A stretch of DNA of 64,000 bases from Haloferax mucosum ATCC BAA-1512 (GTDB lineage: Archaea; Halobacteriota; Halobacteria; Halobacteriales; Haloferacaceae): NCBI RefSeq assembly GCF_000337815.1, contig NZ_AOLN01000011.1, positions 372,001-436,000 on the forward strand, in the 5' to 3' direction. A model generated the notes under the pieces. That model was not told the DNA's origin, did not search any database, and saw only the letters and a list, made by a program, of their open reading frames with translations. Of the stretch, positions 56,524 to 60,606 are shown in pieces. The translations under genes and the position numbers were made by a program. The stretch's first letter is position 1. Each line of letters opens with the position of its first letter.

Positions 56524-57549
56524 TCACGTCGCGTAGAAGAGGAACCGAACGCTCACGAACAAGAAGTACGAACCGACGAGCCACGCGCCCTCTCGCCGGG
56601 TTGCGACGCCGGCGTTCCGACGGAGGACGAACAGGAAGCCGACGGCTACGAGCAGTTTGAACGGGAGGTCCCAGCGGATTACAGACGGTGGAACAGCGTA
56701 GGTCGAAATCAGCCCGCCGAGTCCGAATCCGACGAGCGGGTTCACCACGTTCGACCCGATGAGCGTCCCGAGAGCGATATCTGCTGAGCGCCGCCGGATG
56801 GCTTCGACGACGGTTGTCAACTCCGGGAGGGCAGAAGCGAGACCGATCGTAACGACACCGACCATCGACCCGTTGAGACCGAGTGTTTCCACGACATCTT
56901 GAACGACGAGGAGAACGACGTACGCGCCCCCGAAGACGAGCACGAGCGCGCCAACCGCGACGAGAGCGTCGCGGGTGCGGTTCGTGCTCCGTCCATCGTA
57001 CGACTGACCGTCTTCGCGCGCGGTTCGGATTCCCGCGACGACGTATATCCCGAATCCAACCAACAGGAGAGCACCGTCGAGACGCGAGATGGTTCCGTCG
57101 AACGAGAGCGCGAGCGTCGCGGCAAATGCGAGTATCATCGGATAGTACGTCGAGCGGAAAAACGAGGGCGAAAACGCAGTTCGGCCGATACCGAGGACGA
57201 AAACCCCGACGAGAAGCGTCTGTTGGACCGTCGAAGAGCCCATATTGCCGCCCATGACAGTCGCCGACGCGATGCGGTAGTCGAGCGTTCCAGAGAGAAT
57301 ACCCGCGGAGGCGACGAGATGCGACCCGATTTCGGGGAGACTCGTCCCGACGGCGACAATCGTAGATGCGAGGACGGCGTCCGAAATCTCGAACGCGCGC
57401 GCGACAGCGGTGAGACGGTCAACCGCAACCTGCGCGGCTTTGACCATCACACCGAGTGCGGCGGCGGCGATGAGAAGCGACCCCACAAACAGGGGTGAAA
57501 CCACCAGTTGGAGCGGGAATACCGAAGTGGTGACTGCGGGCCAGTGCAT
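56524..57549 (-). CDS. Sodium/calcium exchanger family protein
   Basis: This 341-residue membrane protein has two internal repeats, each with a catalytic alpha motif: IVAVGTSLPEIGSHLVAS near 62-80 and IGLASALPELTTVVEAIRR near 227-245, followed by GTLIGSNVVNPLVGFGLGG. It exchanges Ca2+ for Na+ across the membrane. Ten or eleven helices are visible. The ORF extends upstream, but ATG 57549 (MHWPAVTTSVFPLQLV) is the natural start. It converges on the antiporter gene and is divergent from the argG leader ORF. Confidence 0.9.
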   Translation of the reverse strand: MHWPAVTTSVFPLQLVVSPLFVGSLLIAAAALGVMVKAAQVAVDRLTAVARAFEISDAVLASTIVAVGTSLPEIGSHLVASAGILSGTLDYRIASATVMGGNMGSSTVQQTLLVGVFVLGIGRTAFSPSFFRSTYYPMILAFAATLALSFDGTISRLDGALLLVGFGIYVVAGIRTAREDGQSYDGRSTNRTRDALVAVGALVLVFGGAYVVLLVVQDVVETLGLNGSMVGVVTIGLASALPELTTVVEAIRRRSADIALGTLIGSNVVNPLVGFGLGGLISTYAVPPSVIRWDLPFKLLVAVGFLFVLRRNAGVATRREGAWLVGSYFLFVSVRFLFYAT

Positions 57550-57701
57550 GAGAAGTGAATCGTCCGAGAGAGACAAAAATGTGGTTCTGGTGACTGTTTG
57601 GCGCGACAGAACGCACGAGAGTGAACCACGGGGGTGAACGCCGGCGAAGGTTGCGTCCCCGAAAGCGTTTAATACGGACGACGGTGTATTCACACGCAAC
57701 C
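57550..57701. promoter_or_regulatory. Divergent region between Na/Ca exchanger and argG leader ORF
   Basis: A 152-base gap. The plus-side BRE/TATA box for the leader ORF is CGAAAGCGTTTAATACGG at about 57660-57677. For the exchanger on the minus strand, the TTTTTGTC complement near 57574-57582 provides an A/T-rich stretch about 27-33 bases upstream of its ATG, a fair TATA candidate. No gene is seen. Confidence 0.5.
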
Positions 57702-57782
57702 ATGGCGACTCGCAGCACCCTCGCCACTTTTACCCCGCTGCGAGCCGCCGCTGTCCGAACCCGACGACGACCGGCCCTTTAG
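57702..57782 (+). CDS. Arg-rich leader peptide upstream of argG
   Basis: ATG 57702 opens a 26-residue frame, MATRSTLATFTPLRAAAVRT followed by RRRPAL. Six residues are Arg, five with the codon CGA, and four are clustered at 19, 21, 22 and 23. CGAAAGCGTTTAATACGG (about 57660-57677) is a good BRE/TATA box about 30 bases before the ATG, so the peptide would be leaderless and translated. Its TAG stop sits in the hairpin GGCCCTTTAGGGCC (57773-57786). The arrangement looks like an arginine-sensing leader. No homologue can be confirmed here; coding is judged from promoter spacing and composition. Confidence 0.6.
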   Translation: MATRSTLATFTPLRAAAVRTRRRPAL

Positions 57783-57810
57783 GGCCACTAGTATCATATC
57801 CTTCGGGGAC
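57773..57810 (+). promoter_or_regulatory. Hairpin and alternative pairing downstream of the leader ORF
   Basis: GGCCCT (57773-57778), TT and AGGGCC (57781-57786) form a 6-bp stem that overlaps the leader stop codon. The upstream GTCCGAA (57753-57759), within the Arg codon run, can pair with TTCGGGGAC (57802-57810) if two G are bulged, giving a competing structure. A ribosome stalled at the Arg codons could therefore decide which forms. There is no strong T-run after it, so the outcome might be RNA stability or translation rather than termination. Confidence 0.4.
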
Positions 57811-57920
57811 ACGTCGAAATTGCTAATCTTCGCTTTTCGTGCCTATTGGCATCTCTACTACTTAATTTCACAATTTGAATGCAAAGAATTTATCTACAAG
57901 TCCATGCCACAAACAGGTAC
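57783..57920 (+). promoter_or_regulatory. argG promoter region
   Basis: The 138-base interval between the leader and argG is A/T-rich from about 57850. GAATTTATC at 57885-57893 lies about 30 bases before ATG 57921 and looks like a second, argG-specific TATA box giving a leaderless mRNA. Just before it, TTCACAATTTGAA (57869-57881) is an imperfect palindrome with TTCA/TGAA arms, a candidate operator for a regulator. Confidence 0.55.
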
Positions 57921-59138
57921 ATGAAGAAAGTCGCACTCGCGTTCTCGGGCGGACTGGACACAACAGTCTGCGTCCCGATTCTCGAAGAAGAGTACGGATA
58001 CGACGAAGTTATCGGCGTCACCGTAGACGTCGGCCAGCCCGAAGCAGAGTTCGAGGAGGCTTACGAAACCGCAGAGGCGCTCGGTCTCGACCACTACGTC
58101 ATCGACGCGAAAGACGAGTTCGCACAGCTCTGTCTCGACTCCGTCTGTGCGAACGCGGACTATCAGGGCTACCCGCTCGGCACCGCGCTCGCACGCCCGG
58201 TCATCGCCGAGGCGATTCTCGAACTCGCCGAGAAAAAAGGGTGTGACGGTATCGCACACGGCTGTACGGGTAAGGGCAACGACCAACTCCGCTTCGAAGC
58301 GGTCTGGCGCGCCTCAGACCTCGAAGTCATCGCCCCCGTCCGCGAGATGGGCATGACCCGCGAGTGGGAGATGGAGTACGCCGCCGAGAAGGACCTTCCC
58401 GTACAGGGCGGCAACGAAGGCGTCTGGTCCATCGACACGAACCTCTGGAGCCGTTCTATCGAAGGCGGCAACCTCGAAGACCCGAGCTACGTCCCACCAG
58501 AGAACATCTACGAGTGGACCGAACAGCCGTCGGGTGAAACCGAACTCGTCGAAATCGAGTTCGAAAACGGCTCCCCCGTCGCTATCGACGGTGAGGAGAT
58601 GGACGCACTCGAACTCATCGAGTTCCTCAACGAGAAAGCGGGCGAACACGGTGTCGGCCGCACGGACATGATGGAAGACCGCATGCTCGGTCTCAAGGTG
58701 CGCGAAAATTACGAGCACCCGGCGGCGACGACGCTCCTCAGCGCGCATGAGGCGCTCGAAGGACTCGTCCTCACGAAAGAAGAACGCGACTTCAAGGCCA
58801 CCGTGGACGACGAGTGGTCCCAGAAGGCCTACGAAGGCCTCATCGACGCTCCGCTCATGGACGCGCTGAACTCGTTCATCGAGACGACCCAAGCGCGCGT
58901 CACGGGCACCGTGACCATCAAATTCGAGGGCGGACAGGCTCGCGCGGTCGGCCGCGACTCCAACTACGCCGCGTACTCCGAATCGGCCGCGTCGTTCAAC
59001 ACGGAGACGGTCGATGGTATCGAGCAAGCCGACGCGACGGGCGTCGCCAAGTACCACGGCTTCCAGGCGCGTCTCGCCAACCAGAGCGCGACGAAACAAA
59101 AGCCCGAACTCGCCGCCGACGGCGGCAGTACCGAATAA
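57921..59138 (+). CDS. argG: Argininosuccinate synthase
   Basis: This 405-residue enzyme joins citrulline and aspartate with ATP to form argininosuccinate. The ATP P-loop SGGLDTTV is at 9-16; GHCTGKGNDQLRFE-type HGCTGKGNDQLRFE lies near 115-128. WSIDTNLWSRSIEGG follows near 170. The start at 57921 (MKKVALAFSGG) is leaderless, with GAATTTATC upstream. The frame opens at 57879, but those residues fall in the promoter. argH follows one base after its stop (TAA, then ATG at 59140). Confidence 0.97.
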   Translation: MKKVALAFSGGLDTTVCVPILEEEYGYDEVIGVTVDVGQPEAEFEEAYETAEALGLDHYVIDAKDEFAQLCLDSVCANADYQGYPLGTALARPVIAEAILELAEKKGCDGIAHGCTGKGNDQLRFEAVWRASDLEVIAPVREMGMTREWEMEYAAEKDLPVQGGNEGVWSIDTNLWSRSIEGGNLEDPSYVPPENIYEWTEQPSGETELVEIEFENGSPVAIDGEEMDALELIEFLNEKAGEHGVGRTDMMEDRMLGLKVRENYEHPAATTLLSAHEALEGLVLTKEERDFKATVDDEWSQKAYEGLIDAPLMDALNSFIETTQARVTGTVTIKFEGGQARAVGRDSNYAAYSESAASFNTETVDGIEQADATGVAKYHGFQARLANQSATKQKPELAADGGSTE

Positions 59139-59139
59139 C

Positions 59140-60606
59140 ATGACGGGCGAGGACGGCGACTCCGAGGGCGTCATCCGCCGGGACCGTTTCAGCGGTGGTC
59201 CCGCCCGCGGGTTCATGTCGAGCCTCGCGGCCGACGAGCGCATCTTCGAGGCCGACCTCGCCGTCGACCGGGCACACGTCGTGATGCTCGTGGCACAGGG
59301 CATCATCGACTCGGACGTCGCCGCCGACATCCTCGACGCACTCGACGACGTGGAAGCGATGGGTCACGACGCACTCTCCGGCGGCGAGGACGTACACGAG
59401 GCCATCGAAGCCGCCGTCATCGACATCGTCGGTCCCGACGGCGGGAAGATGCACACCGCGCGCTCGCGCAACGACGAAGTAGCGACCTGCATTCGCTACC
59501 GTCTGCGCGACGACGTGCTGGAGGCGCTCGACGCGGCACTCGCTCTCCGCGAGTCGCTCGTCGAGACGGCCGCCGAGCACACCGAGACGGTGATGCCCGG
59601 CTACACGCACCTGCAACCCGCCCAACCGACGACGGTGGCACACTTCTTGCTCTCGTACGAGCGAGCGGTCGCCCGCGACTGCGCCCGTCTCGTGTGCGCG
59701 TACGAGCGTATCAACCAGTCACCGCTCGGGTCGGCGGCCTTCGCGGGCACGCCGTTCGACGTGAACCGTGAACTCGTCGCCGACTTACTCGGCTTCGACC
59801 GTGTCATGGAGAACTCGATGGACGCCTCGGCGACCCGCGACTTCCTCGCGGAGACGCTGTCGGCGCTGACGACCCACGCCGTCACGCTCTCCGGACTCGC
59901 AGAAGACCTCGTCGTCTTCTCGAACAAGGGACTCGTCGAACTCTCTGACGACTACTCGTCAACCTCCTCCATCATGCCGCAGAAGAAGAATCCAGATACG
60001 ATGGAACTCGTCCGTGCCGTCGCTGGCGACGCGGTCGGCGAACTCACCGGTCTCTTGACGACGCTCAAAGGACTGCCGCGCGCGTACAACCGCGACCTGC
60101 AACGCGCCCACAACCACGCCTTCCGCGCCGTTGACGACGTGACCGAAGCGGCCGCCGTCGCCGCCGGGGCAGTCACCTCCGCGACGTGGCCCGAAGACGC
60201 ATTGGCAGAGGCCGCGGGCGACGGCTTTTCGACGGCGACCGGTGTCGCCGACCTGCTGGCGATGGCCGGACTGCCGTTCCGCACGGCCCACGAAGTCGTC
60301 GCCGAGGCGGCGTCGCGCTCCGACGGAACCCCCGATGTGGCAACACTTGACGCCGTCGCTACGGACGTATTAGGTGAGTCACTCTATACGCACGTGACAG
60401 CCGAGGCCGTCGAAGCCGCACTCGACCCCGCAAAGAGCGTCGCCAGCCGCGATTCGGTCGGTGGACCTGCACCCGCCGCCGTGAAAGCGACGCTTTCGAC
60501 GGCCCGTACCGAACTCGAAGCCGATTCGGTCGCCGTCGCCGACGCGCGCAATTCGCTTGCGGCCGCCGCCGAAGCACTCGACACGGAGGTTTCGAAGTAT
60601 GCCTGA
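59140..60606 (+). CDS. argH: Argininosuccinate lyase
   Basis: This 488-residue enzyme splits argininosuccinate into arginine and fumarate. RFSGGPARGFMSSLAADER is near the N-terminus, MPGYTHLQPAQPTTVAHFLLSYERA is near 155, and the superfamily signature SSIMPQKKNPDTMELVR is near 276-292, with the catalytic serine. ATG 59140 is the start; the upstream frame belongs to argG codons read out of frame. Arginine synthesis ends here. A GC-rich spacer and a terminator-like region follow. Confidence 0.97.
   Translation: MTGEDGDSEGVIRRDRFSGGPARGFMSSLAADERIFEADLAVDRAHVVMLVAQGIIDSDVAADILDALDDVEAMGHDALSGGEDVHEAIEAAVIDIVGPDGGKMHTARSRNDEVATCIRYRLRDDVLEALDAALALRESLVETAAEHTETVMPGYTHLQPAQPTTVAHFLLSYERAVARDCARLVCAYERINQSPLGSAAFAGTPFDVNRELVADLLGFDRVMENSMDASATRDFLAETLSALTTHAVTLSGLAEDLVVFSNKGLVELSDDYSSTSSIMPQKKNPDTMELVRAVAGDAVGELTGLLTTLKGLPRAYNRDLQRAHNHAFRAVDDVTEAAAVAAGAVTSATWPEDALAEAAGDGFSTATGVADLLAMAGLPFRTAHEVVAEAASRSDGTPDVATLDAVATDVLGESLYTHVTAEAVEAALDPAKSVASRDSVGGPAPAAVKATLSTARTELEADSVAVADARNSLAAAAEALDTEVSKYA

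Follow-up and report, generated by a model that had tools for sequence, protein, structure and literature searches.

Ribosome-mediated attenuation is a textbook bacterial mechanism. In the trp and his operons of Escherichia coli, as in the haloarchaeal leaders described here, a leader ORF carries a run of codons for the product of its own pathway, and a hairpin within the translated trp leader synchronises the RNA polymerase and the ribosome (PMC1183508). The nearest described relatives in build are the actinobacterial ilvB leader peptides of Corynebacterium, Mycobacterium and Streptomyces (Seliverstov et al. 2005, PMC1262725; ilvB-II motif, PMC10272879; ilvB1 of M. tuberculosis, PMC13236596), which share with the haloarchaeal leaders a short ORF 5' of ilvB whose Ile, Val and Leu codons lie just before a GC hairpin and overlap it. 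Mycobacteria also possess short polycysteine ORFs (Canestrari et al. 2020, as cited in PMC13236596), which resemble the haloarchaeal leaders in being leaderless and in having a run of pathway codons near the end. They differ in that they are bacterial and concern cysteine. To our knowledge, no stop-codon hairpin is known for them. For the archaeal side, a study on Haloferax volcanii terminators gives a T-stretch plus C as the main signal and reports one tested hairpin that terminated 59% of transcripts (Berkemer et al. 2020, PMC7237163), and the archaeal factor FttA cuts exposed nascent RNA with a preference for U-rich sequence (PMC11616081). Our search of the open-access literature turned up no description of attenuation by ribosomes in archaea, and we claim no priority.

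The locus examined here lies in a 64,000-nucleotide stretch of the Haloferax mucosum ATCC BAA-1512 genome (the window, whose numbering is used in Table 1). Upstream of argG, the original prediction had placed a leaderless-looking 26-codon ORF with four CGA Arg codons within five positions, followed 138 bases later by argG with argH. The positions of the ATG and the TAG stop and the spacing of the P1 TATA box agree with this description: codons 19, 21, 22 and 23 are Arg codons, all CGA, 138 nt separate the leader stop from the argG ATG, and the ORF that follows argG is one we take to be argH, from the earlier finding and established pathway knowledge. P1 starts 34 nt 5' of the leader ATG, so that the leader mRNA would start at the ATG or a few bases before it, as fits a leaderless message. 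The stop had further been described as lying inside a perfect 6-bp hairpin; it is indeed enclosed, but the stem has 5 bp with a 4-nt loop, and 6 bp would need a loop of 2 nt. No known leader, riboswitch or T-box of Rfam 15 matched at E ≤ 5 within 57400–58200. A divergent 391-aa ORF of membrane type, exchanger-like by eye, adjoins P1 on the minus strand (56524–57699); its start is next to P1, and both promoters may therefore overlap.

Table 1. Features of the argG leader region of H. mucosum, in window coordinates.
Feature	Position	Strand	Evidence
P1 TATA box TTTAATA of the leader transcript, preceded by BRE-like CGAAAGCG	57668..57674	+	Sequence; in-frame start spacing across loci
Leader ORF, 26 codons, peptide MATRSTLATFTPLRAAAVRTRRRPAL followed by stop	57702..57782	+	In 15/15 genus genomes and nearly all class genera sampled
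Predicted hairpin A within the ORF, 57704–57716 pairing with 57737–57749	57704..57749	+	Fold; ORF bodies more structured than shuffles
Regulatory codons CGA ACC CGA CGA CGA (Arg Thr Arg Arg Arg)	57756..57770	+	Arg peak at −4 to −7; CGA bias
Hairpin B, GGCCC-TTTA-GGGCC, with stop TAG (57780–57782) in loop and 3' arm	57773..57786	+	Conservation, compensatory pairs, blind test
G-poor, pyrimidine-rich tract 3' of hairpin B	57787..57804	+	G scarcity across loci
TTTTC, possible weak archaeal termination signal, unconserved in other families	57834..57838	+	Sequence; H. volcanii motif (PMC7237163)
P2 TATA (AATTTATCT), separate leaderless promoter of argG	57887..57895	+	P2-like box in 72/119 loci
argG, argininosuccinate synthase	57921..59138	+	Homologues located in 390/391 genomes of class Halobacteria; TIGR00032 above cut-off
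argH (presumed), next gene of the arginine operon	59140..60606	+	Position after argG; reading frame

To follow the leader beyond this genome, we compared it with related Haloferax genomes, a check that the original prediction had itself proposed, and found it in all 15 genomes of the genus with the Arg end and the hairpin kept. In the 14 other genomes (the named records include Haloferax larsenii, elongans, sulfurifontis, gibbonsii and denitrificans) it is located 213–219 nt upstream of argG, with a single length difference of 3 nt. The peptides end in RRRRPAL or RPRRRAL, and in two genomes in RRRRPAPQGQ with the stop just past the hairpin. Across the genus, the ORF shows 8 synonymous changes on 20.7 sites and 7 non-synonymous ones on 45.3 sites. 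The wider survey covered the class Halobacteria, with argG upstream DNA from about 75 genera plus 80 named records; other classes of the phylum also have argG homologues. In nearly every haloarchaeal family sampled, argG is preceded by a leader ORF, mostly of 21–50 codons (21 to 59 across all loci), in which an Arg cluster is followed by RPG(L/R) or similar and the stop. The N-terminal two thirds of the peptide are unrelated between genera and the Arg end is kept, and the stop hairpin lies about 60–190 nt upstream of argG. The stem itself differs by lineage (GGCCC/GGGCC, GGGCC/GGCCC, GGGGTC/GACCCC, GGGGC/GCCCC), with an in-frame stop every time, and its changes are compensatory: at ungapped stem positions, the second pair is CG in 79, GC in 23 and TA in 17 loci, and the third is GC in 88, CG in 29 and TA in 2. 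The hairpin encloses the stop in 111 of 119 loci, which were selected for a hairpin. Six argG leaders, among them those of Halonotius and Halohasta, end before or beyond the usual hairpin position, possibly a loss or rewiring of the device, with the Halonotius- and Halohasta-like ORFs stopping before the hairpin. Four others (Natronorubrum, Salinadaptatus) have a long Arg run in a frame that crosses the hairpin and stays open for tens of codons more; they are natural variants that bear on the idea of a stop within the hairpin. In two lineages, the loci have neither an argG nor an ilvB leader.

Because choosing leaders by their hairpin would make the argument circular, we picked ORFs 5' of argG in the class Halobacteria by a TATA box and an ATG alone, ignoring the hairpin and the Arg codons. 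Among the 120 distinct ORFs chosen in this blind way, 95 had a hairpin-enclosed stop, 107 had three or more Arg codons within −3 to −12, and 91 combined the two features, counts that come from related records spanning many families and so do not represent independent events. The same rule applied to both strands of 2.0 Mb of the H. mucosum genome gave 8, 19 and 3 of 111 ORFs, respectively; here as in the other genome scans, 2.0 of 3.37 Mb (59%) were covered. Over the 119 hairpin-selected loci, the Arg frequency is highest (0.59–0.75) at −4 to −7 relative to the stop, and at −4 to −12 the mean Arg frequency per codon is 0.43 in the stop frame vs 0.19 and 0.13 in the shifted frames. In 94 of the 119 loci a TATA box is followed by a start codon in frame with the stop, vs 5 and 7 for the wrong frames; this start lies 22–45 nt downstream of the box (mode 31, mostly 30–34). 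CGA makes up 76% of the leader Arg codons vs 18.6% of the Arg codons in the genes of the genome. Downstream of the hairpin there is a G-free tract of about 17 nt with a consensus like ACTACTACTTCACTCCCC: at none of the first 17 nt does G exceed 7% in the 119 loci, which were chosen for a G-poor tail, and a G-poor tail follows 94 of the 95 blind-chosen hairpins. The 2.0-Mb scan yielded 14 TATA-led ORFs with a hairpin-enclosed stop, and only those of argG and ilvB are followed by the G-poor tract. The ORF body is structured as well, with 41 of 95 loci at z < −1.5 vs about 6 expected from shuffles, pointing to a hairpin in the first part of the ORF. Taken with the conservation, these results leave us almost certain that the leaders are selected, in-frame ORFs with a stop hairpin.

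In haloarchaeal relatives, ilvB (acetolactate synthase) is likewise preceded by an ORF of this architecture. It ends, for example, in RSLIIVGA, SLIIVGAA or RIVGAL before the stop, which is enclosed by a hairpin formed by GTAGGGGC and CCCC arms. Strict criteria select 44 distinct ilvB loci, and nearly all the others have IVGA, VVGA or IVGV followed by the stop at the same place. The branched-chain codons occupy −3 to −6, a spacing from the stop that matches that of the Arg codons before argG, and here too the codon choice is biased, with 61 ATT vs 13 ATC, and GTA for 48 of 68 Val codons vs 4.6% genome-wide. Two hallmarks of a ribosome-mediated attenuator are accordingly present, a short upstream ORF with a run of pathway-product codons (argG and ilvB) and a leader of the same build with matching amino acids before another biosynthetic operon (ilvB). 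The use of a single synonymous codon fits the selective tRNA charging theory (PMC1183508), but in the ilvB leader GTA might also be preferred for its pairing in the hairpin. A near-palindrome, GCAATCGTTGC (GCAAnnGTTGC), is conserved just 5' of the ilvB-leader TATA in most genera seen (in H. mucosum at about 1100–1140 of the ilvB-upstream locus), and is a candidate transcription factor site. In the same genome the ilvB leader (234268) lies directly 3' of a leuA-like gene on the same strand (C1:232987–234108), and may also separate leuA expression from that of ilvB. We found no similar leader 5' of trpC, hisG, carA, leuA or in the trpE region. About 70 nt upstream of the carA match in the genus there is a conserved palindrome, TTACGAATTTCGTAA, resembling a regulator binding site.

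We consider it probable that the H. mucosum ORF is an arginine-responsive leader of the argGH operon, and belongs to a set of two or more amino-acid leaders common to the class Halobacteria, with Arg codons at argG and Leu/Ile/Val codons at ilvB. This combined explanation is graded as probable because the sensing step carries most of it. The sequence data establish the ORF and its leaderless promoter, the placement of the codons, the in-frame stop in a covarying hairpin, the G-free tract, the conservation throughout the class and the ilvB twin; translation, stalling, early termination and the dependence of the latter on the hairpin are what we infer. The amino acids would very probably be sensed through ribosome stalling, and we see an even chance that the stalled ribosome would also hold the stop hairpin open and thereby avert early termination. 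In the proposed scheme, translation of the leaderless mRNA from P1 would begin at its first AUG. When arginine is plentiful, the ribosome would clear the CGA run, terminate at the stop and depart, and the hairpin would then fold behind the RNA polymerase over the G-free tract, bringing transcription to an early end, either by intrinsic termination of the hairpin type or through the factor FttA. With arginine short, the ribosome would wait at the Arg codons at −4 to −7 and mask the 5' arm of the hairpin, which could not fold, and transcription would continue into argGH. A ribosome with a codon in its A site extends roughly a dozen nucleotides further. The 5' arm begins 7–10 nt before the stop in most loci and the regulatory codons lie 9–21 nt before it (−3 to −7 over both leaders), and a stalled ribosome would by this reach cover the 5' arm, at the farthest codon only just. 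Hairpin A may correspond to the first hairpin of the E. coli trp leader and might pause the RNA polymerase until the ribosome arrives (PMC1183508). The bacterial-type ribosome-stall leader of the original prediction is thus upheld in its Arg leader and hairpin, which are class-wide and have a Leu/Ile/Val twin, but not in its two-state switch. Several findings weigh against the proposed scheme: P2 of argG in this genus, the want of a conserved U-tract terminator or terminator/antiterminator switch, the rarity of hairpin plus tract at gene ends, the lineages whose leader stops before the hairpin or runs past it, and the failure to find a similar leader at trpC, hisG, leuA and carA.

Set against the bacterial systems, the haloarchaeal leaders show neither the mutually exclusive II:III and III:IV helices nor the U-tract terminator of the E. 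coli trp and his leaders, and the stop hairpin itself would be the switch. The actinobacterial leaders have a hairpin followed by a U-tract, with antiterminators proposed, whereas the haloarchaeal ones have the stop in the hairpin loop, a G-free C/U/A tract and no conserved antiterminator; their hosts are archaeal, and an Arg version exists before argG. The H. volcanii terminators are 3'-end or intragenic signals, and the available part of that report mentions no leader or attenuation; a TTTTC also occurs downstream of the argG leader hairpin (PMC7237163). The leaders may represent an archaeal class of ribosome-mediated attenuators, present in most families of Halobacteria and acting on at least two pathways with the stop hairpin as the sole switch, without an antiterminator or U-tract; for this class, we judge the arguments on either side to be about balanced. 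If it exists, archaeal transcription and translation would be linked so closely that a ribosome could determine whether a transcript is continued, a question that arises around FttA and Spt5 (PMC11616081). Such a class would also account for very short leaderless ORFs that precede biosynthetic operons without being annotated, and provide a natural sensor for arginine and the branched-chain amino acids.

The region downstream of the hairpin bears on two other ways in which the leader could act. In a classical attenuator, the two-state structure originally proposed, an anti-Arg segment further downstream would base-pair with the Arg run, in competition with the stop hairpin or a terminator. The genus does have a local match between CGACG and a conserved CGTCG that is included in the fold; a few other loci have longer ones by eye. 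Over the 119 loci, however, complementarity between the Arg run and the downstream sequence is at chance level (median p 0.59; 19 loci at p < 0.1, 11.9 expected), the stretch from the hairpin to argG has no more structure than usual (median z −0.17), and the pairing comes down to an unconserved short match in this one RNA. Because the hairpin, the stop and the G-free tract are conserved and the downstream pairing is not, a two-state switch is not the conserved device, and we regard this explanation as very unlikely. We found no conserved U-tract terminator in the 119 loci, where the longest downstream T runs vary from 2 to 5, and no conserved terminator/antiterminator switch. Assignment to the trp-type terminator/antiterminator class was considered and rejected, as neither mutually exclusive downstream helices nor a U-tract terminator is conserved in these loci. 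The hairpin with a G-poor tract was considered as a general terminator of this genome and set aside, with only one candidate found between the end of a gene and a neighbour on the opposite strand. The absence of any conserved U-tract terminator or antiterminator and the rarity of the hairpin and tract at gene ends would suit translational control, in which sensing is real and stalling alters how argG or ilvB is translated from the same mRNA through reinitiation or ribosome access; so would the shorter distance from the leader stop to argG in loci without P2 (median 98 nt vs 146 nt with P2). But reinitiation would have to bridge a rather long gap of 70–230 nt, the sequence from the hairpin to the argG start has no conserved structure, and what is conserved, the hairpin and the tract, sits at the leader end, distant from the start codon to be controlled. 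Translational control is in our view unlikely.

Two further explanations concern the peptide and the palindrome. An Arg-rich small peptide with its own function, its location 5' of argG being secondary, had been offered as the competing explanation, and the substitutions counted above indicate that the peptide is somewhat constrained within the genus. Nevertheless, its N-terminal two thirds are wholly different between genera, its length varies over the wide range given above, and the ilvB twin, with the same architecture and a different, pathway-matched peptide (Leu/Ile/Val), makes this far less likely, so that we hold it to be highly improbable. We give just as little credence to the palindrome being a transcription factor operator in the DNA with the ORF incidental. 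GGCCCTTTAGGGCC is a near-perfect palindrome, and P2 suggests additional promoter-level control of argG; against this, the palindrome is located well downstream of P1, varies by compensatory pairs, differs between argG and ilvB, and keeps an in-frame stop with matching codons before it.

The stalling leader has to be reconciled with P2, the TATA box that argG itself has 32 nt 5' of its ATG and that had been raised as a doubt from the outset. The doubt holds for Haloferax, where P2 is conserved and the leader cannot therefore be the sole control of argG, but loses force elsewhere, as about 40% of the leaders examined are without P2. In numbers, a P2-like box is absent in 47 of the 119 loci and present in the others, this genus included, while a control window gave 3. 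Since P2 is missing in these 47 loci, and since no TATA box is found directly 5' of ilvB in this genome, the mRNA at these loci probably arises by readthrough from P1, and argG without P2 would be expressed via the leader unless an unrecognised promoter exists. The P2 TATA forms part of a long AT-rich element, AATTTCACAATTTGAATGCAAAGAATTTAT (57866–57896), which in the genus is conserved well past what a core promoter would need. Other families have a recognisable form of this element, which is possibly a repressor operator.
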